A stretch of 64,000 bases of DNA, from assembly GCF_900129315.1 (NCBI RefSeq), contig NZ_FQUS01000001.1, positions 186,001-250,000 on the forward strand. Reading direction: 5' to 3'. Positions 3,476-61,869 of the stretch are shown one piece after another (within the stretch, counting starts at the first letter, position 1; every line of letters begins with the position of its first letter). This stretch comes from Fodinibius roseus (GTDB taxonomy: Bacteria > Bacteroidota > Rhodothermia > Balneolales > Balneolaceae). The position numbers and the translations under genes were made by a program. Below the pieces are notes generated by a model, which was not told where the DNA came from, made no database searches, and saw only the letters and a list, made by a program, of their open reading frames with translations.

Positions 3476-5476
3476 ATGAAAAATAGTACATTGATGATAT
3501 CCAGGATGGCATCTACTTTATTGGTTGTGCTGGTTCTGGCACTTTCTGCTTACATGGATGCACATGGCCAATCGCAAAAAATCGCTGAAATTACCGTCAA
3601 AGCGGGGGGATTTGACCGTTATTATACCCCGGTAAGTGCCTCACTCGAAGGGATACCGCTCGGACTTCAAACCGGACGGAGACTTCAGCTCTATGAAGTT
3701 GTGAAGGGTAAAGAGCGGGCGGTGGCGTCGCAACTGGAAGCGGACGGCTATGAGAAGAAACTCCGGTGGATACTGGAGGGGAAAACTCCCGCCGGGACTC
3801 ACCGGAATTATATACTCAAGAGTGAAGATAAAAACAGTCCGGATGCTACGGATGAGGCCATCCATATCCGGGATGACGGTAAATCACTGACGGTGATGGC
3901 CGGTGACCGGAAAGTGCTGAGTTACCGATACGTGGCCAAGTCTGCCCCGGAAGGCGTTTCTGAGCGCTACAGCCGCAGCGGGTATCTTCACCCGTTGTGG
4001 TCGCCGGAGGGTGAAGTGTTGACCAGGATTCAACCTCCCGATCACTATCACCACTACGGTCTCTGGAATCCGTGGACAAGAACCGTATTTGAGGGACGGG
4101 AAATCGATTTTTGGAATCTGGGAGAGGGACAGGGAACGGTGCGTCACAAATCAATGCCCCAAAGAATAGAAGGAGAGGTCTTCGGGGGATTTGAGGCATT
4201 GCTGAATCATGTGGACCTGACCGCACCCTCCGGTGAGAAAGCGGCTTTGAACGAAAAGTGGGAAGTCAAAGTCTGGAATGCGGACCCGGAAAGGGACGTG
4301 TGGCTGATCGATTTTGTCTCTACGCTGAATCCCGCAACGGAATCTCCGCTGACGATCAAGGCGTATCGTTACCAGGGATTCAGCCTCAGGGCTACCGGAA
4401 AATGGAGTGACAAAACCGCCACGCTGCAGACCTCAGAAGGAAAGGATAAAAGCAATGGCAACGGCACGCGTGCACGGTGGACCGATATCAATGGGGTTTC
4501 GCAGGTGGGGAATTCCGGCATTCTGTTTATGACGCATCCGGGCAACCAGAATTTTCCGGAACAGCTTCGGATCTGGCCCACGGGCGCTAATGAGGGGAAA
4601 GCAAATGTGTACTTCAACTTTAATCCCGCCCAGGAGGAGGACTGGAGGCTGGAGCCGGGGAGCAGCTACAGCTTAAAGTATCGCATGATGGTGTACGACG
4701 GGAAAATTGATTCCGCGGCTGCCGAGCGGTACTGGCGTGACTTCGGGAATCCTCCCGGGGTAGAAGTCCGGCATCAAGGCCTCGGGGGAAGCCGGGTATT
4801 GGTCTACACCAGAAATGGAGAAGGATATGTACATGACAATATTCCCAATAGTATTGAAGCCCTTAAGGAGCTCGGAGAAAACCACAATTTTATCGTTGAT
4901 ACATCAGATGATCCGGCTGATATTACTAAAGACAATCTAAAAAAATATGACGCGATAGTTTTTTCAAATACCAATAATGATGTTTTTACCACCCCGGAAC
5001 AGCACGATGCATTTCAAAATTATATTCGGTCAGGAGGAGGATTTGTAGGCATTCATTCGGCATCGGGCTCGGAGCGGGACTGGCCGTGGTTTTGGAGCCT
5101 GCTCGGCGGGTCTTTTTATCGACATGCCCCTTTCCAGAAGTTCACGGTAAATAGTACGGATGAAACCCATCCATCTACGGATTTTTTACCTCAGGAGTGG
5201 ATACGAGAGGATGAATGTTACTATCTCAAGCAATTGAACTCAGGTATTCATGTCCTGCTGCAGGCTGATATGACCACGGTGGAAGATAAAGGAAAGGGGG
5301 ATTATCCCGGCGACGTATTCGGAAGTACGTTTCCGTTAGCCTGGTATCAAGAGTTTGAGGGGGGACGCTCCTGGTATACTTCCCTGGGACACAGTGTTGA
5401 GGATTACGATGATCCGGTCTTCTTGCGACATATCCTGGGGGGCATTGAATGGGTCGTATCAGGTAGCAATCACTAA
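3476..5476 (+). CDS. DUF6807 (PmoA-like) + ThuA-like two-domain exported protein
   Basis: A 666-residue protein with an N-terminal signal peptide (about residues 1-32, ending near AHGQ). Residues about 35-430 match the DUF6807/PmoA-like family, with the His-rich DHYHHYGLWNPW motif. Residues about 440-660 match the ThuA/trehalose-utilisation glutamine-amidotransferase-like fold (VLVYTRNGEGYVHDN, GGGFVGIHSAS, LGHSVEDY). Both families are frequent in sugar catabolic loci of Bacteroidota and Planctomycetota, often beside Gfo/Idh/MocA oxidoreductases as here, but neither has a firmly assigned reaction. The function in glycan or sugar-acid breakdown is inferred from context. The stop lies 33 bp before the next gene, so co-transcription is likely. 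Confidence 0.85.
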   Translation: MKNSTLMISRMASTLLVVLVLALSAYMDAHGQSQKIAEITVKAGGFDRYYTPVSASLEGIPLGLQTGRRLQLYEVVKGKERAVASQLEADGYEKKLRWILEGKTPAGTHRNYILKSEDKNSPDATDEAIHIRDDGKSLTVMAGDRKVLSYRYVAKSAPEGVSERYSRSGYLHPLWSPEGEVLTRIQPPDHYHHYGLWNPWTRTVFEGREIDFWNLGEGQGTVRHKSMPQRIEGEVFGGFEALLNHVDLTAPSGEKAALNEKWEVKVWNADPERDVWLIDFVSTLNPATESPLTIKAYRYQGFSLRATGKWSDKTATLQTSEGKDKSNGNGTRARWTDINGVSQVGNSGILFMTHPGNQNFPEQLRIWPTGANEGKANVYFNFNPAQEEDWRLEPGSSYSLKYRMMVYDGKIDSAAAERYWRDFGNPPGVEVRHQGLGGSRVLVYTRNGEGYVHDNIPNSIEALKELGENHNFIVDTSDDPADITKDNLKKYDAIVFSNTNNDVFTTPEQHDAFQNYIRSGGGFVGIHSASGSERDWPWFWSLLGGSFYRHAPFQKFTVNSTDETHPSTDFLPQEWIREDECYYLKQLNSGIHVLLQADMTTVEDKGKGDYPGDVFGSTFPLAWYQEFEGGRSWYTSLGHSVEDYDDPVFLRHILGGIEWVVSGSNH

Positions 5477-9156: not shown

Positions 9157-11856
9157 ATGGAAAAGAAGGGATTTTCATCAAAGGAAGGAACAGAGGACAA
9201 GGATAACATAAGCCGGCGCCAGTTTCTGAAAAGAGGGGCGGGATCCGCTGCTTTTTGGGTTCTGGCAGGTTCGGGTTTGTCATCTGCCGTCAGCAGCTGT
9301 GCACCGGAAAACAGCGAAAGCGAATTTTCCGGTCGCGTCGAAGAGCTGATAGCAGAGATGTCCCCCGAAGAAAAAATATCACAGCTCCGCTACGATGCCC
9401 CGGCTATCCCGAGACTGGACATTCCCAAATACAACTGGTGGAATGAGTGTTTGCATGGCGTGGGACGTGCCGGGTACGCCACGGTATTTCCCCAGGCGAT
9501 GGGCATGGCGGCGACCTGGAATGCCCCGCTGTTTCAGCAAATGGCCAACGCCATTTCAGACGAAGCGCGGGCCAAGCACCAGGCCTTCAGGGAAGAGGGC
9601 CGGCGCGATATTTATATGGGATTAACGTTCTGGACTCCCAATATCAATATTGTACGGGACCCGCGCTGGGGAAGGGGACAGGAAACCTATGGCGAAGATC
9701 CCTATCTGACCGGCTCCCTGGCGAACTCCTTCATCAACGGGCTGCAGGGCGAAGATCCCGACTATCACAAGGTGGTGGCTACGTCGAAGCATTTTGCGGT
9801 TTACAGCGGACCTGAGCCCCTTCGTCATGAGATGAATGTGGAAGTAAGCGACCGGGACCTCTGGGATACGTACCTTCCTGCTTTTGAGACCACGATAAAG
9901 GATGCAGGAGTGGCTTCCGTAATGTGTGCCTACAACAGCTTCCGGGGAATGCCCTGTTGCGGCAGTGACCCGCTGATGAAAGCCATATTGCGAAACGACT
10001 GGGGTTTTGAGGGATATGTGGTGTCTGATTGCTGGGCTATAAATGACTTTTATGAAGAGGGACGGCACGGGGCCTCAGAAACGGCCGCTGAAGCCGCGGC
10101 CCTGGCGCTCCAGACGGGAACAGACCTGAACTGCGGCAATTCGTATCCCCACCTGCAGGAAGCACTTGAGCGGGAGTTAATAACCGAGGAGGATCTGGAC
10201 AATGCCCTGCACCGGCTGTTTGAAGCCCGGTTTAAGCTGGGCCTTTTTGAGGATCCCGAAGAAGTTCCCTATTCGGATATTCCGTATTCGGTGGTCGACA
10301 GTGAAGAGCACCGGGAGCTGGCCCTGCAGGCGGCCCGGGAGTCCATGGTGCTTTTAAAAAATGAACCCGTTGGAGATCAGGACGGGCAGCCTGTGCTGCC
10401 TCTGGACCGCAACCTGGATTCCATCGCCGTTATCGGTCCCAATGCAGACAACTACTGGACTATGCTGGGGAACTACCACGGCACTCCGGCTTTGCTGACA
10501 ACAGCGCTGGCGGGAATACAAGCAAAAGCAGGGGACAGTACGGAAGTCTCTTATGCCGAGGGCTGCCGCATGGCAGAGGGGGTCCCAACACTGAACCCGG
10601 TAGAAAGCGCCTATTTAACCCCGGCAGAAGGAGAAGGTGACGGATTGTATGCTGAGTATTTCGATAACCGGGACTGGGAGGGAGAACCCCAAATTACGCG
10701 CGTGGATTCAGCGGTCGATTTTGTATGGCGGGATGACACGCCCGTAACCGGGAAGCTGGCCGATTACTTTTCCGTGCGGTGGACGGGACAGCTCGAAGCC
10801 CCGGTTAGCGGTCGTTATACCCTCGGATTCAACGGATTCAATGGCTATCGTCTTTCCTTTGAAGGGGAGAAAAAAATTGAACGGGATCTGGATCACGAGC
10901 CCTGGCACGAAACGTTTGAGGTGGACCTGGAGGCGGGGGGAACCTACGACATCACGATCGAATACTTCAACCGGGGTCCGGATCCCCGGGCCCACTTGGT
11001 ATGGCAGGTGCCGCAGAACGATCTGTTAGCCGAAGCAAAAGAAGCCGCCCGGAGTGCCGAGGCCGTAATCCTCTGCCTGGGACTGAACGCTAAGCTGGAG
11101 GGAGAGGAGATGGACCTGGATGTGGAGGGATTTAAAGGCGGAGATCGTACATCTCTCTCTCTTCCGGCGCCTCAAATAGAGCTTATGAAAGAAATATATG
11201 CCCTAGATAAACCGGTTGTATTGGTGCTGATGAGCGGAAGCGCTCTTGCGGTAAACTGGGCCGATGAGCATATTCCCGCTATCCTGCACGCCTGGTATGG
11301 GGGACAGGCCGGGGGCAGGGCCATAGCCGATGTGTTATTTGGCGACTACAATCCGGGGGGAAGACTGCCGGTTACCTTTTATAAATCCGTGGAAGATTTG
11401 CCGGATTTCACCAATTATGATATGGATAACCGCACCTATCGATATCTCAAAGCCGAGCCTTTATACGCTTTCGGACACGGGCTTAGCTATACTTATTTTG
11501 AGTACGATAACCTGTCCCTTTCCTCAGATTCGTTTCAAACGGACAGTGATACCGAGCTGGAAGTTGGCGTCGAGGTGACCAACACCGGGGAGGTGCACGG
11601 TGACGAGGTGGTACAGTTATATATACGTTACCCGGAGGGAGGCGATTCTCGTTTAAACCATGCACTAAAAGGGTACCATCGTATCTCTCTGGATGCCGGC
11701 CAGTCGAAAACGGTAACTTTTCGGGTCAACGATAAGACATTGGCTCAATGGAATGAGGAAGAGGGAAGCAAGTCCGTGCCGGGAGGCAGGGCAGAAATCA
11801 GGATAGGTCGCTCTTCGGATGATATTGTACTGACGAAATCCCTGAAAATTATATAG
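9157..11856 (+). CDS. Glycoside hydrolase family 3 (beta-glucosidase/beta-xylosidase type) with PA14 insert, Tat lipoprotein
   Basis: An 899-residue GH3 enzyme. The N-terminus combines a twin-arginine motif (SRRQFLKRG) with a lipobox (AVSSC), so it should be Tat-exported and lipid-anchored. Domains in order: GH3 N-terminal barrel (about 65-380) with the nucleophile in VVSDCWAINDF (Asp291); the start of the GH3 C-terminal domain; a PA14 insert (about 489-621, GLYAEYFDN...); the rest of the C-terminal domain (GQAGGRAIADVLFGDYNPGGRLPVTFY); and a fibronectin III-like tail (about 785-895, VTNTGEVHGDEVVQLYI). By family it releases terminal beta-linked glucose, xylose or related sugars. The SDC rather than SDW context resembles the xylosidase branch, but specificity is uncertain. 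Confidence 0.93.
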   Translation: MEKKGFSSKEGTEDKDNISRRQFLKRGAGSAAFWVLAGSGLSSAVSSCAPENSESEFSGRVEELIAEMSPEEKISQLRYDAPAIPRLDIPKYNWWNECLHGVGRAGYATVFPQAMGMAATWNAPLFQQMANAISDEARAKHQAFREEGRRDIYMGLTFWTPNINIVRDPRWGRGQETYGEDPYLTGSLANSFINGLQGEDPDYHKVVATSKHFAVYSGPEPLRHEMNVEVSDRDLWDTYLPAFETTIKDAGVASVMCAYNSFRGMPCCGSDPLMKAILRNDWGFEGYVVSDCWAINDFYEEGRHGASETAAEAAALALQTGTDLNCGNSYPHLQEALERELITEEDLDNALHRLFEARFKLGLFEDPEEVPYSDIPYSVVDSEEHRELALQAARESMVLLKNEPVGDQDGQPVLPLDRNLDSIAVIGPNADNYWTMLGNYHGTPALLTTALAGIQAKAGDSTEVSYAEGCRMAEGVPTLNPVESAYLTPAEGEGDGLYAEYFDNRDWEGEPQITRVDSAVDFVWRDDTPVTGKLADYFSVRWTGQLEAPVSGRYTLGFNGFNGYRLSFEGEKKIERDLDHEPWHETFEVDLEAGGTYDITIEYFNRGPDPRAHLVWQVPQNDLLAEAKEAARSAEAVILCLGLNAKLEGEEMDLDVEGFKGGDRTSLSLPAPQIELMKEIYALDKPVVLVLMSGSALAVNWADEHIPAILHAWYGGQAGGRAIADVLFGDYNPGGRLPVTFYKSVEDLPDFTNYDMDNRTYRYLKAEPLYAFGHGLSYTYFEYDNLSLSSDSFQTDSDTELEVGVEVTNTGEVHGDEVVQLYIRYPEGGDSRLNHALKGYHRISLDAGQSKTVTFRVNDKTLAQWNEEEGSKSVPGGRAEIRIGRSSDDIVLTKSLKII

Positions 11857-50202: not shown

Positions 50203-50440
50203 GAATCGTTTTTGACAAGATTATTAAAGGTGAACGTCCCGGATGCGGGGATAAGATAAGAAAAGTAATACGGACTCACAGCCTTTTCGTCGGACCTGAT
50301 CTTGCGGACCATGATTTGTCTGTGGATTGCCGGAATGAGCACTGGCCCCGGATTGAACGGACGGGTCAGTTTCCTGTTGGCTTATATGACAGAATACCGT
50401 TACTTTCACTAATCATCTATTTTTAACATACTGATTCATT
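50203..50440. other. Divergent promoter region between ABC-F and the B12 operon
   Basis: About 240 bp before the riboswitch. No hairpin terminator or small ORF was found. Promoters for the ABC-F gene (leftward) and the btuFCD transcript (rightward) are expected here. TTTTTAACATACTG near 50410-50424 is AT-rich. Confidence 0.35.
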
Positions 50441-54031: not shown

Positions 54032-54139
54032 TTTTTTTATGATCCTTTTGGATCAAGCCAAAAGGATCTATAAAAACCGTGCCTTTCTTTTTATCAGGAA
54101 AGCCCCTACTTTACGAGCGCTCTTTGAAATAGTGTATTG

Positions 54140-54370
54140 GTTTTCCGTCCCCCCCGGCGACTGTCGGCTCCGGGATGGAATGAAAAGGGAATTCCGTGCC
54201 CCGTCAGATGCTGACGTTTATCATAGATATGACGGGAAATCGGAAGCTGTACCCGCAACTGTAAATCCATTGCTACGCTGTCTCCAACCTTTTGCCACTG
54301 TCCCGGTAACCGGGATGGGAAGGCCGGACAGCAGGATGAGCCAGAAGACCTGCCAAACGATCCTATTTCT
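54140..54370 (+). promoter_or_regulatory. Cobalamin riboswitch 2 (upstream of the btuB-like gene)
   Basis: Ordered conserved blocks: GAAAAGGGAATTCCGTG (from 54182), AGCTGTACCCGCAACTGTAA (54245-54264), TTGCCACTG (about 54293), a CCCGG/CCGGG peripheral hairpin near 54302-54314, and the B12 box AGCCAGAAGACCTGCC (54339-54354), identical to that of riboswitch 1. It lies in the 378-bp gap after btuD and gives the receptor gene pair its own cobalamin control. Confidence 0.95.
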
Positions 54371-54373
54371 TGA

Positions 54374-54409: not shown

Positions 54410-56371
54410 ATGACCATCTTACACTTATATTATTATTTATATAGAAAAAAACAGATCAGCGTAGCTGTACTATGCTGCATTGCCCTGTTTGTATATGCAT
54501 GCCAACCTGCGCAGGCACAAACGCAAACGATAGCGGATACGCTTGAACTGGAGGAAGTGGAAGTTGTGGCCACGCGTATCGATCAGCCGATGAAGTACCA
54601 GCCTACCGCCGTAGAAGTAATCGATTCGACCCGTCTGAGCTTATTGCACGCCCAATCCATTGGCGATATCCTCGCGTCACAGTCCTCACTGTTTATAAAG
54701 AATAACGGGCCGGGCGGGATGGCAACCGCTTCGCAGCGGGGACTCTCATCCGAGCAGATCCAGGTGTTGTGGGAGGGAATTCCGATAAACAGTCCCACGA
54801 TCGGGCAAACAGATCTTTCCCTGCTGCCGACCAGTTTCTTTTCCAATATTCAGGTAAGTTCCGGGACGCCCAGCACCGCCTTCGGCGGCGGGAGTTTATC
54901 CGGGGCCCTCTATCTCTCTTCAGATTGGGAAGAGAGTCGTCATTTTTCCGCCCGGCAATGTGGCGGCTCGTTCGGACAGTGGCAATCGTCCCTGCAGGGA
55001 GGCTATACCACCGAAGACCTGCAGGTTTCGATCCGTGGATTATACGACTACGCCGAGAATGATTTTGAATATTATAACCGGGGGTACGACCGGGTTGAAA
55101 AGCGACAGCACAATCGCAGCGAGCGTTATAATATGATGGCTTCTGTAGGAGAAAAAACCGGGGCGGGGGAGTGGAAATCCGTCTTCTGGGCGGCCGACAG
55201 CGATAACCAAATTCCGGGCAATATATTGAATACCAACAGCCGGGCCCGGCAGGAAGATCAGGCAGTCCGATGGCTCAGTACATACCGACATAGCTGGGGA
55301 GATACCGAACTCGAGCTAAAGAATTTCCTGGGCCGAAGCGCATTGAACTATTTTGATCGCGGGATTAATACCCGAAGCTTTACGACTACCCGGCGCTGGT
55401 TGATCAGTTCAAACATCAAGCACACATTGAGTGAATATGTTGAGCTTAAGGGAGAGCTAAGTGGAGAACTAACGGGAGTAGAAACCAATAACTATAATTC
55501 CCTGAAAACGCGTCAGCAGTTCAGTGCCTTGACCAATCCGGAAGTTACGTTCTTTGACCGGCGGCTGCGTCTGTATCCGGCATTACGGCTGGATGTTTAT
55601 AGTGATTTTGGAACAGTATTGAGCCCTTCATTAGGGGTGAATTACGAATTGCTAACCAATCGGCTGTTTGTCCGGGGACAGCTGAGCCGGGATTTCAATC
55701 CCCCTACGTTCAATGCTCTGTACTGGGGACAGGGGGGCAATCCGGATTTGAAAGCGGAGCGGAGCAACAGTGCCGAAGCGGGAGTCACCCTTACGCCCCG
55801 CCGGTTTTTGGGCTTGTCTTCCGTTAAATTAACAGGCTACTACAGTGAGATTGATCATGGTATCCGGTGGTTTCCGGGAAATGACGGCATATATATCCCG
55901 TCCAATGTAGAGCAGCTGACCACCCAGGGGATAGAGGCATATATAAAAAATAGTTTTTTAATGCCCGGAAATTGGCACCTGCAGCTCGATCAATCCGGCA
56001 GCCTGAATCGGACCGAAATAACTGAACCCCGTTTTGACGGCGACGCGGCTGTGGGTCACCAGGTGCGCTATGTTCCCCAGTGGAAGTATAAAGCCTCGTT
56101 GAGCGTGGATAAAGGGATAGCCAGGGTACTTTTGCAATACCGGTGGGTTGGTCGCCGCTATACCACCGATACCGAGGATTTCAGTTCCTCCCTGGATCCC
56201 TATCAGGTACTGGATGCCACCCTGCAGCTCCGCCGGAGGTATGGGGATATCACCTTCAAAGCCCGGGCGGGCATCAAAAACCTGCTCGACAGGAATTATG
56301 AAATCATACAGTGGTACGCGATGCCACAACGGAATGTCACTTTTTCCCTAACAGCAACTTATCAATTATAA
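54410..56371 (+). CDS. btuB: BtuB-like TonB-dependent cobalamin receptor
   Basis: A 653-residue outer membrane receptor. Signal peptide about 1-37 (ends QAQ). TonB box region LEEVEVVATR (about 47-56). Plug about 58-180 with QSIGDILASQSSLFIKNNGPGGMATASQRGLSSEQIQVLWEGIPINSPTIG. The rest is a 22-strand barrel ending in aromatic-rich FSLTATYQL. The size is that of BtuB, far smaller than SusC, and it lacks the SusC N-terminal domain. The cobalamin riboswitch directly upstream identifies the substrate. The propeller lipoprotein 21 bp downstream is its likely partner. Confidence 0.93.
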   Translation: MTILHLYYYLYRKKQISVAVLCCIALFVYACQPAQAQTQTIADTLELEEVEVVATRIDQPMKYQPTAVEVIDSTRLSLLHAQSIGDILASQSSLFIKNNGPGGMATASQRGLSSEQIQVLWEGIPINSPTIGQTDLSLLPTSFFSNIQVSSGTPSTAFGGGSLSGALYLSSDWEESRHFSARQCGGSFGQWQSSLQGGYTTEDLQVSIRGLYDYAENDFEYYNRGYDRVEKRQHNRSERYNMMASVGEKTGAGEWKSVFWAADSDNQIPGNILNTNSRARQEDQAVRWLSTYRHSWGDTELELKNFLGRSALNYFDRGINTRSFTTTRRWLISSNIKHTLSEYVELKGELSGELTGVETNNYNSLKTRQQFSALTNPEVTFFDRRLRLYPALRLDVYSDFGTVLSPSLGVNYELLTNRLFVRGQLSRDFNPPTFNALYWGQGGNPDLKAERSNSAEAGVTLTPRRFLGLSSVKLTGYYSEIDHGIRWFPGNDGIYIPSNVEQLTTQGIEAYIKNSFLMPGNWHLQLDQSGSLNRTEITEPRFDGDAAVGHQVRYVPQWKYKASLSVDKGIARVLLQYRWVGRRYTTDTEDFSSSLDPYQVLDATLQLRRRYGDITFKARAGIKNLLDRNYEIIQWYAMPQRNVTFSLTATYQL

Positions 56372-56392: not shown

Positions 56393-57451
56393 ATGAAACA
56401 ACGATTTATACGTTCCCTCTCTCTATTGGTAGTTACCTTTCTTATCGGTTCCTGTGTGGATGGGGGGAATAATCCCGACCCATTAGAACTCTCCTCTGTC
56501 TATGTCACGAATGAAGGAAACTTCAATGATAGCGATGGTTCATTGACGAGTTATGACCCTGAATCGGGAAGTACCCTTAAAAAAGCGTTCGGAAATGCCA
56601 ATGGCCGTCCCCTGGCCGGCATCATCCAATCCGCTAAAATAGCCGGGGAGCATATCTTTATGGTATTGAACAATGCTAATAAGATTGAAGTCGCGGAAGT
56701 CGAGTCGCTGGAAAGCGTGGCAACGATTGAGCTCTCGACTACTCCCACTGATTTTGAGATTATAAATAACCAGACAGGCTATGTCAGCAACCTGTATGAT
56801 GGCAGTGTTACGGTGGTTGACCTGGAAAACTTTGAAGAAACCGATCAAAGGATATCCGTGGGATCACAACCGTGGTCGATTTTTCGTATGAATAACCTGG
56901 CGTTTGTCGCAAACAAGGGGGCGGGCAATGACAATACGATCTCCGTAATAAATACGACCAGTCATACGGTCGATCATACTATTGAAGCGGGGCCCGGCCC
57001 CCAGGATATCAGTGTAGATATGGCCGGCCGACTCTGGGTGGTTTGCAACGGGTTGATCGCTTATGATGAGAACTGGGAGCGGGATCCTGCCAATGATAAG
57101 CCCGGAAGCGTCTATCTTATTGATGGAAGCAGCGCTACGGTAATCGACTCCATTGAAACCGGGGGACACCCTACCGGGATTGCACTGGATAATGACAATG
57201 CGAAGGCCTATTTACTGAATGACGGGATATCCGTGATTGATATGAATACGTTGTCGGTCGAGGAAGAACCGTTTACTTCACGTTCTTTCAGTGCCATTGG
57301 CTACCTGCCTACCCAGGAGCGCTTGTATGTCGGGGACAGCAGGGGATACAGCCAGGATGGACAGGCGTTGATTTATGACCAGCAGGGCACGGCCGTGGAT
57401 TCCTTTAACGTCGGTATCGCTCCCAATGGATTTCATTTTGTCGTGAATTAA
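56393..57451 (+). CDS. BtuG-like beta-propeller surface lipoprotein
   Basis: A 352-residue lipoprotein (lipobox LIGSC, Cys21) with repeated blade motifs of a YncE/DUF5074-type seven-bladed propeller: SSVYVTNEGNF, GYVSNLYDGSVTVVDLENF, LAFVANKGAGNDNTISVINTTSHTVDHTI, GRLWVVCNG, KAYLLNDGISVIDMNTL. It starts 21 bp after the BtuB-like gene under riboswitch 2. In gut Bacteroides the lipoprotein BtuG is a propeller that sits on BtuB and captures cobalamin with very high affinity. The same order, size and fold make this a BtuG counterpart by inference. Confidence 0.8.
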   Translation: MKQRFIRSLSLLVVTFLIGSCVDGGNNPDPLELSSVYVTNEGNFNDSDGSLTSYDPESGSTLKKAFGNANGRPLAGIIQSAKIAGEHIFMVLNNANKIEVAEVESLESVATIELSTTPTDFEIINNQTGYVSNLYDGSVTVVDLENFEETDQRISVGSQPWSIFRMNNLAFVANKGAGNDNTISVINTTSHTVDHTIEAGPGPQDISVDMAGRLWVVCNGLIAYDENWERDPANDKPGSVYLIDGSSATVIDSIETGGHPTGIALDNDNAKAYLLNDGISVIDMNTLSVEEEPFTSRSFSAIGYLPTQERLYVGDSRGYSQDGQALIYDQQGTAVDSFNVGIAPNGFHFVVN

Positions 57452-58014: not shown

Positions 58015-58023
58015 TTATCCACA
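58015..58023 (+). promoter_or_regulatory. DnaA box-like site 1
   Basis: TTATCCACA, an exact match to the bacterial DnaA-box consensus TTATNCACA, 220 bp upstream of the nrdJ ATG. It is part of a 10-bp inverted repeat (GTTATCCACA / TGTGGATAAC) with site 2. Confidence 0.65.
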
Positions 58024-58081
58024 TCACAAAAAGCAGGGATCCCCAGGTTTTGCCGGAAAGAAGATCTGCAGGCGAATCAAT

Positions 58082-58090
58082 TGTGGATAA
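58082..58090 (-). promoter_or_regulatory. DnaA box-like site 2
   Basis: TGTGGATAA, the exact consensus on the minus strand, 58 bp after site 1 and facing it. Confidence 0.65.
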
Positions 58091-58101
58091 CTACCCGGTT
58101 T

Positions 58102-58110
58102 TGTGGAAAA
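58102..58110 (-). promoter_or_regulatory. DnaA box-like site 3 (one mismatch)
   Basis: TGTGGAAAA reads TTTTCCACA on the minus strand, one base from the consensus, 20 bp from site 2 and in the same orientation. Confidence 0.45.
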
Positions 58111-58242
58111 GTATTTCAGTTTTTGCTTGTACCGGAGCACAAGTCCTTTATATTTTATAGAAGGCAAAAGAGCCAAGTTATTGTTATTGCTTTTACCCGA
58201 AAGGCCTATCCAAGTAAAAATATTAGTCAAGGAACCAGTTAT

Positions 58243-61200
58243 ATGAAATTTACACGTTTTTATACTCAGGAAGAGTGGGAGACCCCCTTTGAAAATATGA
58301 CATTCGAGAGCCGGAAATCAGAGATCAAGAATCCGGATGGATCACTGGTATTCTCCATGGAGAATGTGATCGTCCCCAAGTCCTGGTCGCAGGTATCCAC
58401 GGATGTTATTGCGCAGAAATATTTCCGCAAGGCCGGGGTCCCGAAGAAAACCAGGAAAGTTAAAGAGAAAGGTGTCCCGGAGTGGCTACAGCGATCAGAG
58501 CCCGATGAGAAGGCTATGAAGGATATCGATGAAGAAGAGCGATACGGCGGCGAGAACGACAGCCATCAGGTGTTCCATCGCCTGGCGGGCTGCTGGACCT
58601 ACTGGGGCTGGAAGCACGATTACTTTGACTCCGAAAAAGATGCGAAGGTTTTCTACGATGAGCTGCGTTATATGCTTGCCAACCAGATGGCGGCTCCCAA
58701 CAGTCCCCAGTGGTTTAATACCGGCCTGCACTGGGCCTACGGCATTAACGGTCCGTCACAGGGACACTATTATGTGGACGGCAAGACGGGCGAGCTCACA
58801 AAGTCGGATGACGCCTACAGCCACCCCCAGCCTCATGCCTGCTTTATCCAGAGTATTGATGACAACCTGGTCAACGAGGGCGGTATCATGGATCTTTGGG
58901 TCCGCGAAGCACGTCTCTTCAAATACGGCTCGGGGACGGGCAGCAACTTTTCCAAAATTCGCGGAGAAGGAGAGCCGCTGAGCGGGGGAGGGAAGTCCTC
59001 CGGACTTATGAGTTTTCTGAAGATCGGGGACAAGGCCGCCGGGGCGATTAAATCGGGCGGGACCACCCGCCGGGCCGCCAAGATGGTTACCCTCGATCTC
59101 GACCATCCCGATATTGAAGAATATGTGAACTGGAAGGTTCGCGAGGAGCAAAAGGTGGCCTCGATGGTTGCGGGATCTAAAATTCTGGAGAAGCATCTTA
59201 AGAAAATTATCAAGCTCTGCAACAAGCCAGTGGAAATTGACGGGCGTACCTTTAACGGGGCGGTCAGCCGCGACCCGTTGAAAAACAAAGAGCTCGGAAA
59301 AGCCATTAAAGAGGCCAAGGAAGACCAGGTACCGCTCAATTATATTGAACGGGTGGTACAGCTGGCATCACAGGGCTTCACCGACCTGAAATTCGATACC
59401 TACGATACGGACTGGGATTCAGAGGCCTACCGCACGGTAAGCGGACAGAATTCCAATAATTCGGTTCGTATTCCCAACAAGTTTATGAAGGCCGTCAAGG
59501 ATGACGGCGAGTGGAACCTCTACTGGAGAACGGAGAAGCGTAAAGCCAAGGAAGAGGGCCGTGAGCCGAAGCCGTGCAAAACCATGCCGGCGCGTGAACT
59601 CTGGGATGAAATTTCCAACGCGGCCTGGGCTTGCGCCGACCCGGGAGCGCAGTATCACGATACCATTAACGAATGGCATACGTGCCCCGAAGACGGACCG
59701 ATCAACGGGAGTAATCCCTGCTCGGAATACATGTTCCTGGACAACACGGCCTGTAACCTGGCTTCCCTCAACCTGATGAAGTATTTCAAAACAGACGAGT
59801 GCAAGGAGTTTGATGTGGAAGCACTCCGGAATGCCTCGCGGCTCTGGACTGTCGTGCTGGAGATCTCCGTACTGATGGCCCAGTTCCCCTCCAGGGAAAT
59901 AGCGGATCTTTCGTACAAGTATCGCACGCTGGGGCTGGGATATGCCAACATCGGGGCGGCGCTGATGGTCCGGGGCGTCCCCTACGACAGTCCCGAAGGA
60001 TGCGCGATTGCCGGGGGGCTGACCAGCCTTATCCATATGAATGCCTATGCCACCAGCGCGGAAATGGCGAGTGAGCTGGGCACCTTCGAGCGATACGAAG
60101 CCAACAAAGAGCATATGCTGCGGGTGGTGCGCAATCACAAGCGGGCGGCTTTTAATGTCGATCCCGACGAATATGAGGGACTGACCGTCAAGCCGATGGG
60201 CATTGATGCAAACCAGTGTCCCGATAACCTGCTGAAGGCAGCGCGCAAGGATTCCGAGAAAGCCGTGAAGATGGGTGAGAAGCATGGCTATCGCAATGCA
60301 CAGGTAACGGTTATCGCCCCGACCGGCACCATCGGACTGGTCATGGACTGCGACACCACGGGTATAGAGCCTGATTTTGCGCTTGTGAAGTTTAAGAAGC
60401 TGGCCGGTGGCGGGTATTTCAAGATCATCAACCAGTGCGTCCCCAAAGCACTCGAAAATCTGGGATACGCTCCCAGGGAGCGCCAGGAGATCATCGATTA
60501 CGCCAAAGGTCACGGTGAGCTGGAGGGCTGCCCGCATATCAATGAAGAGAGCCTGCGCGAGAAAGGCTTCGGAGATGCCCAGTTGGAGGCGATCAAAGAA
60601 GCGCTGCCAAGCAGTTTCGATATCAAATTCGCCTTTAACCAGTTTACGCTGGGCGAGGATTTTTGTGAGCAGGAACTGGGACTGGAGGAGGAGCAGCTGG
60701 CCGATCCGCAGTTTAACATGCTGAAGTATCTCGGCTACTCGCAGCGGGAGATCCAGGAAGCGAACGATTACGTGTGCGGGACCATGACCGTGGAAGGAGC
60801 GCCGCACCTGAAAGACGAGCACCTGCCGGTCTTCGACTGCGCCAATCGGTGCGGGCGAATCGGGACGCGCTACATTAAGCCCGGGGGACACATCCGGATG
60901 ATGGCCGCCGCGCAGCCGTTTATTTCGGGAGCGATTTCCAAGACAATTAACCTGCCGAATGAAGCGACCGTGGAAGACTTCAAGGATGCGTATATGGATT
61001 CCTGGGAGCTGATGCTGAAAGCCAACGCCCTCTATCGCGACGGCTCGAAATTAAGTCAGCCGCTGAACAGCCTCAGCGATGTCTTTGAGGAACTGGAAGA
61101 CGAAGAGGACCTGGAAGAGACAGCGGAGGCACAGGACAAAGTGGTGGAGTCGGCCGAAAAAATCATCCACAAGTATGTGGCCAACCGCCAGCGGCTGCCA

Positions 61201-61869
61201 AGCCGGCGGACCGGTTACACGCAGAAAGTGAAAATCGGGGGACAGAGTGTCTACCTGCGGACGGGTGAATATGAGAATGGTCAGCTGGGTGAAATCTTCA
61301 TTGATATGCACCGCGAGGGGGCCGCATTCCGCAGCCTCACCAATTGCTTTGCCATTGCGATCTCGCTCGGCCTGCAGCACGGCGTGCCGCTGGAGGAGTT
61401 CGTGGATGCCTTCACCTTCACCAAGTTCGAACCCAGCGGGATGGTCAACGGAAGTCCGCATATTAGAATGACGACATCCGTTATTGATTACATCTTCCGG
61501 GAGCTGGCCGTGACGTACCTCGGCCGGGATGACCTGGCGCATGTCCCTGCCGACGATATTATGTCGCGTAAACTGCGTCCCTCTGAAGAGGCCGAACAAG
61601 CCCGCGAGAAAGCAAAAAGGGTAGACCCGACGCAGAAGAAAAAGCCTGATTCCACCAATCAAAATCAGCCGGAAACCGTCACTCAGGCACAATCTGCAAA
61701 GCAGGCCCGGACGGCCGCTGATGATGACAGTTACCAGAGCGACTACGAGAAGGCTAAGGAGATGGGCTACACCGGCGATTCGTGTCCTGAGTGCGGAAGC
61801 ATGACGATGGTACGCAACGGCACCTGCCAGAAGTGCATCACCTGCGGCTCGACGACGGGGTGCTCGTAA
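58243..61869 (+). CDS. nrdJ: Vitamin B12-dependent (class II) ribonucleotide reductase
   Basis: A 1208-residue adenosylcobalamin-dependent reductase making deoxynucleotides. The start at 58243 ([16 protein letters not shown]) is the usual NrdJ N-terminus; in-frame codons back to 58081 overlap the DnaA-like sites. Motifs: [14 protein letters not shown] with the first redox Cys, [16 protein letters not shown], the active-site loop [53 protein letters not shown], and a C-terminal Zn/redox Cys tail ([18 protein letters not shown]...CGS). A Lys/Glu-rich linker (about 1115-1170) precedes the tail. Full length. It uses the vitamin imported by the genes upstream. Confidence 0.97.

Follow-up and report, generated by a model that had tools for sequence, protein, structure and literature searches.

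Does the initiator DnaA control a vitamin B12-dependent ribonucleotide reductase (RNR)? RNR supply has to match replication, the DnaA link has been worked out for the class I enzyme of E. coli, and many bacteria rely on NrdR. The question is raised by three DnaA-box-like sequences upstream of nrdJ, a class II reductase gene, in a 64,000-nucleotide stretch of the Fodinibius roseus genome (the window, by which we mean this whole stretch). From these boxes an earlier note had proposed that DnaA ties dNTP supply to replication at nrdJ, a logic that it held to be undescribed for a B12-dependent reductase. It suggested counting consensus boxes genome-wide and checking the conservation of the cluster in relatives, and allowed that the place might instead be the chromosomal origin, with dnaA and a GC-skew switch nearby.

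In E. coli, DnaA binds boxes in pairs, and at almost every one of its ChIP targets, nrdA included, the two boxes are 2-3 bp apart; it also binds upstream of nrdD, the class III RNR gene (PMC11317965). Expression of nrdAB is activated by DnaA-ADP or low DnaA-ATP and repressed by high DnaA-ATP (PMC8203912). Our search of the open-access literature agrees with the earlier note in that it returned no report of DnaA acting on nrdJ: a review of DnaA as a transcription factor makes no mention of nrdJ or Bacteroidota (PMC8203912), and open-access papers holding both DnaA and nrdJ, as far as titles, term counts and the text of PMC6538847 go, contain no regulatory link between the two. The DnaA-RNR link has so far been described only for other RNR types, and the element analysed here may extend it to a class II enzyme in an order of salt-loving bacteria.

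Boxes and putative promoter upstream of nrdJ

The nrdJ gene (58243..61869, + strand) encodes a 1208-aa adenosylcobalamin-dependent (class II) RNR that scores above the cut-off of the B12-dependent RNR models (profile match PRK07562, 2015 bits), and its ATG at 58243 is common to nearly all relatives; a 1262-aa reading frame was discarded, since all that it reflects is an in-frame TTG further upstream. The intergenic region before nrdJ measures 791 bp, is A+T-rich and contains two exact DnaA boxes (TTATCCACA), box A (58015..58023, + strand) and box B (58082..58090, − strand), together with box C (58102..58110, − strand), which reads TTTTCCACA and is nearly invariant in Balneolaceae. A check of the sequence confirmed the positions and strands of all three, 133-228 bp before nrdJ. 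The relaxed E. coli R-box is TTWTNCACA; box C differs from TTATCCACA by one mismatch yet fits this form, and both TTTTCCACA and TTTTCAACA would probably be weaker sites for DnaA. The cluster had been described as two exact boxes facing each other. Both are indeed present, but the conserved unit is the tandem of 58082 and 58102, which box A faces, and the facing pair 58015/58082 was rejected as a functional unit because box A is lineage-specific.

The tandem core, TGTGGATAA-N11-TGTGGAAAA (58082/58102), holds boxes B and C in the same orientation and 20 bp apart, a spacing of about two helical turns that would put both boxes on one face of the DNA. In an alignment of 51 distinct sequences the conserved columns beside the boxes are a TTTTTtCTTG block and TATATT, which we take to be the −33 and −7 elements of a Bacteroidota-type promoter lying directly downstream of the core; the first of these columns lies some 16 bp beyond the pair. 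In the window the putative −33 element is CTTG (58126..58129, + strand), conserved as CTTG or TTTG, and the putative −7 element is TATATTTT (58149..58156, + strand), of the TAnnTTTG type and conserved as TATATT. Transcription of nrdJ would then start near 58163, with the boxes at about −57 and −77.

Further upstream lie a cobalamin riboswitch found by Rfam search (54121..54371, + strand), the gene for a BtuB-like TonB-dependent receptor for B12 uptake identified by domain match (54410..56371, + strand) and, directly before nrdJ, a beta-propeller lipoprotein gene whose product is, by position and domain, presumably BtuG-like (56393..57451, + strand). Cobalamin riboswitches (RF00174) were found in the window at 50426 and 54121 only, with none in the nrdJ leader, and riboswitch control at nrdJ was rejected on that ground. 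The segment 50426-57451 reads as a locus for B12 uptake: besides the receptor and the lipoprotein it has BtuC/D-like genes and two cobalamin riboswitches. In several relatives nrdJ has similar neighbours.

Conservation of the box pair

Across 92 Balneolaceae genomes, the pattern TGTGGATAACT-N6-TTTTGTGGAAAA, with up to 3 mismatches allowed, gave 141 matches, against 2 for its reversed control. The pair lies within 500 bp upstream of nrdJ in 78 of the 80 family genomes having the nrdJ 5' end, at a median distance of 170 bp from the start, and the conservation in relatives on which the earlier note had placed weight is thereby borne out. The two exceptions are G083, in which the contig gives just 173 bp upstream and still shows TTTTCCACA, and G057, in which the tandem is divergent and of the kind seen in the sister families. 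Mean information content over the 51 distinct sequences was 1.99 bits in the 18 box columns, 0.69 in the 11 columns between them and 0.23 in the upstream flank, the box values being partly by construction since a match to the two boxes, with one position free, was the criterion for choosing the sequences; the unbiased figure is 78/80. Most of the genus retains box A with its 67-bp distance unchanged; elsewhere boxes at other places replace it, and other genera have further boxes near −340 to −390. In several genera the space between the two boxes of the pair contains a third at a 10-bp period (upstream of nrdJ in L104, L031 and L082; TGTGGATAAgTGTGGATAAtTGTGGAAAA). This additional box is a perfect match in one genome and an almost perfect one in several; it is absent from the window's genome and was rejected as part of the core.

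Many genomes of sister families in the same order have degenerate tandem boxes near the promoter with a 2-bp gap (TGTGAATAAgtTGTTGATAA, TGTTGAAAAgtTGTTGAAAA and TGTGGAAAAgtTGTTGAAAA), and in some (e.g. G108, G109) no recognisable pair was found next to the nrdJ start. Another order of the class has a more distant NrdJ, with exact boxes in some genomes, and at two loci of one of its families TGTGGATAA or TGTGGAAAA is followed after 2 bp by TGTGATTAA. Among 46 outgroup loci (Ignavibacteria, Planctomycetes and others) no exact box occurred within 500 bp of nrdJ. Similar tandem boxes were also seen in two other settings: several Gracilimonas-group genomes have them in the gap that separates a purine nucleoside phosphorylase-like gene from a 262-aa gene (L043:2493-2521), and G032 has them upstream of a gyrB-like gene (L163:2820-2845).

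The class I operon and the absence of NrdR

Balneolaceae also carry nrdB-nrdA, situated behind metE in several genomes, and the class I promoter has the same box pair as nrdJ; the element is not special to the B12-dependent enzyme. Within the genus the TTGACA of this promoter sits about one helical turn closer to the pair than the −33 element of nrdJ does. A cobalamin riboswitch follows the class I pair in the nine loci examined, including that of the window's own genome, where the first box has decayed to TGTTAACAA. The operon there runs cobalamin riboswitch, dead metE, nrdB, nrdA, the metE being a remnant with a large internal deletion (L035:5550-6400; G000:C52).

A search for NrdR passed the cut-off in 1 of 244 genomes of the class, and that genome has 8% contamination; the weak NrdR matches overlap NrdA, the ATP-cone of which resembles NrdR. 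Essentially no genome of the class has NrdR, and control of the reductase genes by NrdR was rejected since the nrdR gene is absent.

Alternative explanations

The intergenic DNA is A+T-rich, as chance or low-complexity matches would have it, but such an origin of the boxes is virtually excluded: 20,000 rounds of dinucleotide shuffling applied to the 791-bp region never produced two exact boxes, nor three TTWTCCACA sites, and the near-invariance over 51 distinct sequences already refutes it. The genome-wide count that had been suggested, made by pattern searches, likewise shows enrichment, with 62 exact boxes in 5.08 Mb against 22 for the reversed-pattern control. Pairs of exact boxes less than 100 bp apart number 5 against 0.07 expected, and they occur at four places only, namely dnaA, the inferred oriC, nrdJ and a gap after a glmS-like gene. 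Three boxes within 96 bp of an A+T-rich gap could also mark a chromosomal or secondary origin, yet we give this hardly any credence, given that the window has no GC-skew switch near the place and that dnaA lies on another contig with its own boxes just before it (G000:C23; spacing 98/163 bp, and 99/163 bp in a second genus, G003). A cluster of four exact boxes, with TTATACACA at a 3-bp gap, stands instead at a local skew minimum between genes that we named dtd and purM by reading their sequences. In the complete genome of G003 (3.49 Mb) the skew switches near 0.95 Mb (the sign of the sampled skew flips somewhere from 0.885 to 1.06 Mb, and the cumulative curve has its local minimum at dtd-purM, near 0.956 Mb), whereas nrdJ, at 3.337 Mb, is about 1.1 Mb from the inferred origin. 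Skew, the position of dnaA and the dtd-purM cluster together led us to reject the nrdJ upstream region as oriC, which is most likely the dtd-purM gap (L003:4971-5257; G000:C35:40470-40756; also L160 in G003). The fourth cluster, after the glmS-like gene (L002:5006-5059; G000:C28:136005-136058), has a 3-bp-gap doublet and could be a datA/DARS-like site.

A different transcription factor, standing in for NrdR, might bind TGTGGAWAA direct repeats that merely resemble DnaA boxes. The lack of NrdR in the class and the presence of sites at both RNR promoters would suit such a factor, as would the 11-bp gap and, in some genera, the third box at a 10-bp period, features unlike the double boxes of E. 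coli. We nevertheless regard it as unlikely, because the 9-mer is the exact DnaA consensus, because these genomes have the identical TTATCCACA upstream of dnaA and at their inferred origin (at the latter also in a 3-bp-gap doublet), and because the 2-bp gap of the sister families is typical of DnaA. The DnaA protein carries the usual GGRDHSTV box-reading signature. From sequence, the 2-bp doublets are the best argument for DnaA as the binder and the 11-bp gap of Balneolaceae is the best argument against it. It is highly improbable, in our judgement, that the boxes are a titration or reactivation site of the datA/DARS kind that stands before nrdJ by chance and controls DnaA activity, not nrdJ. 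Clustered, differently oriented boxes about 1.1 Mb from the origin (in G003, one complete genome) do recall the E. coli sites, but such a site need not follow RNR genes, and the pair has a fixed place beside the nrdJ promoter, recurs at the class I promoter and moves with copies of the promoter.

Proposed control of the two reductases

The analysis establishes the sequence of the element, its conservation, its place at both promoters, the lack of NrdR and the lack of an origin. We consider it likely that the element is a cis-regulatory site of the nrdJ promoter bound by DnaA, probably activating, and common to both reductases, the choice between which would fall to B12. The proposal that DnaA ties dNTP supply to replication at nrdJ is therefore upheld in part: the boxes are conserved, enriched and located at a promoter that is not an origin, whilst the binding of DnaA, activation as opposed to repression and the effect on dNTP supply are what we infer, and the gap is 11 bp against 2-3 bp in E. 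coli. With the pair just upstream of −33, DnaA would most likely aid RNA polymerase in starting nrdJ when the initiator is available. Activators usually sit around −57 and −77, and it is the position of the boxes that favours activation, although either sign is possible. The ATP/ADP state of DnaA, or its titration, could tune the level of nrdJ, and dNTP supply would follow replication. The same element would drive the B12-independent class I operon, whose leader riboswitch for cobalamin should shut off expression when B12 is present; DnaA would thus set the amount of reductase and B12 which reductase is made.

Like E. coli nrdAB, nrdJ has sites matching the DnaA-box consensus directly upstream of its (here presumed) core promoter, one exact and one weaker and in the same orientation. 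E. coli nrdAB encodes a class I (Ia) enzyme and has a 3-bp gap (TTATCCACAaagTTATGCACT; PMC11317965), whereas Balneolaceae nrdJ encodes a class II enzyme and has, in place of the 2-3 bp of nrdAB-type promoters, a gap of 11 bp, with 2 bp in several sister families; the nrdJ element, in addition, belongs to a genome without NrdR and is known from sequence. A link of DnaA to RNR beyond nrdAB, in other classes or phyla, is shared with E. coli nrdD and with Bacillus subtilis and Caulobacter, where DnaA has been proposed to control RNR genes, although the relevant parts of those accounts name no class II gene and describe no conserved paired element (PMC11317965; PMC8203912). Cobalamin riboswitches are known to control B12-independent isozymes (metE; class I nrd operons), and metE-nrdB-nrdA likewise has one in several relatives, but the Balneolaceae operon adds the DnaA-box pair that it has in common with nrdJ, joining two controls. 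One regulator site common to RNR operons of different class also recalls the NrdR regulon, except that NrdR is absent and the site sequence is different. An order without NrdR has a strictly conserved DnaA-box pair on a B12-dependent RNR and on its riboswitch-controlled class I backup; if DnaA binds there, replication control of dNTP synthesis would track the role of the gene and not the class of the enzyme, and the joint DnaA and B12 logic is testable with two promoter fusions.

Promoter copies away from nrdJ

Four genomes of the genus have between them five copies of the promoter and pair at sites other than nrdJ (L159:11501-11596; L157:9072-9100; L158:8808-8903; L156:3727-3822; L155:359-387), the most extended likeness to nrdJ promoters covering 270 bp at 79%. 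The L159 copy, next to an integrase-like gene, precedes PycTM and PycC (Pycsar, 4.7e-127), the L157 copy precedes genes for MazG_C, two ThsB-type TIR, Nmad2 and SLATT proteins, and the remaining copies have small unknown genes behind hairpins downstream. A tentative lead, and one that we think less likely than not, is that the nrdJ promoter and pair have been copied to mobile islands of the genus, before anti-phage defence operons, and that defence would there respond to replication state or to how much DnaA is available, as the reductase may do. Related small proteins (FRAxxxHPxTGExIYPKNGxxFPIW) are encoded between the copied promoter and the cargo at L156 (about 4300-4400) and L157 (about 9400-9500), their genes sitting behind hairpins that share an AACT(T)AG motif.
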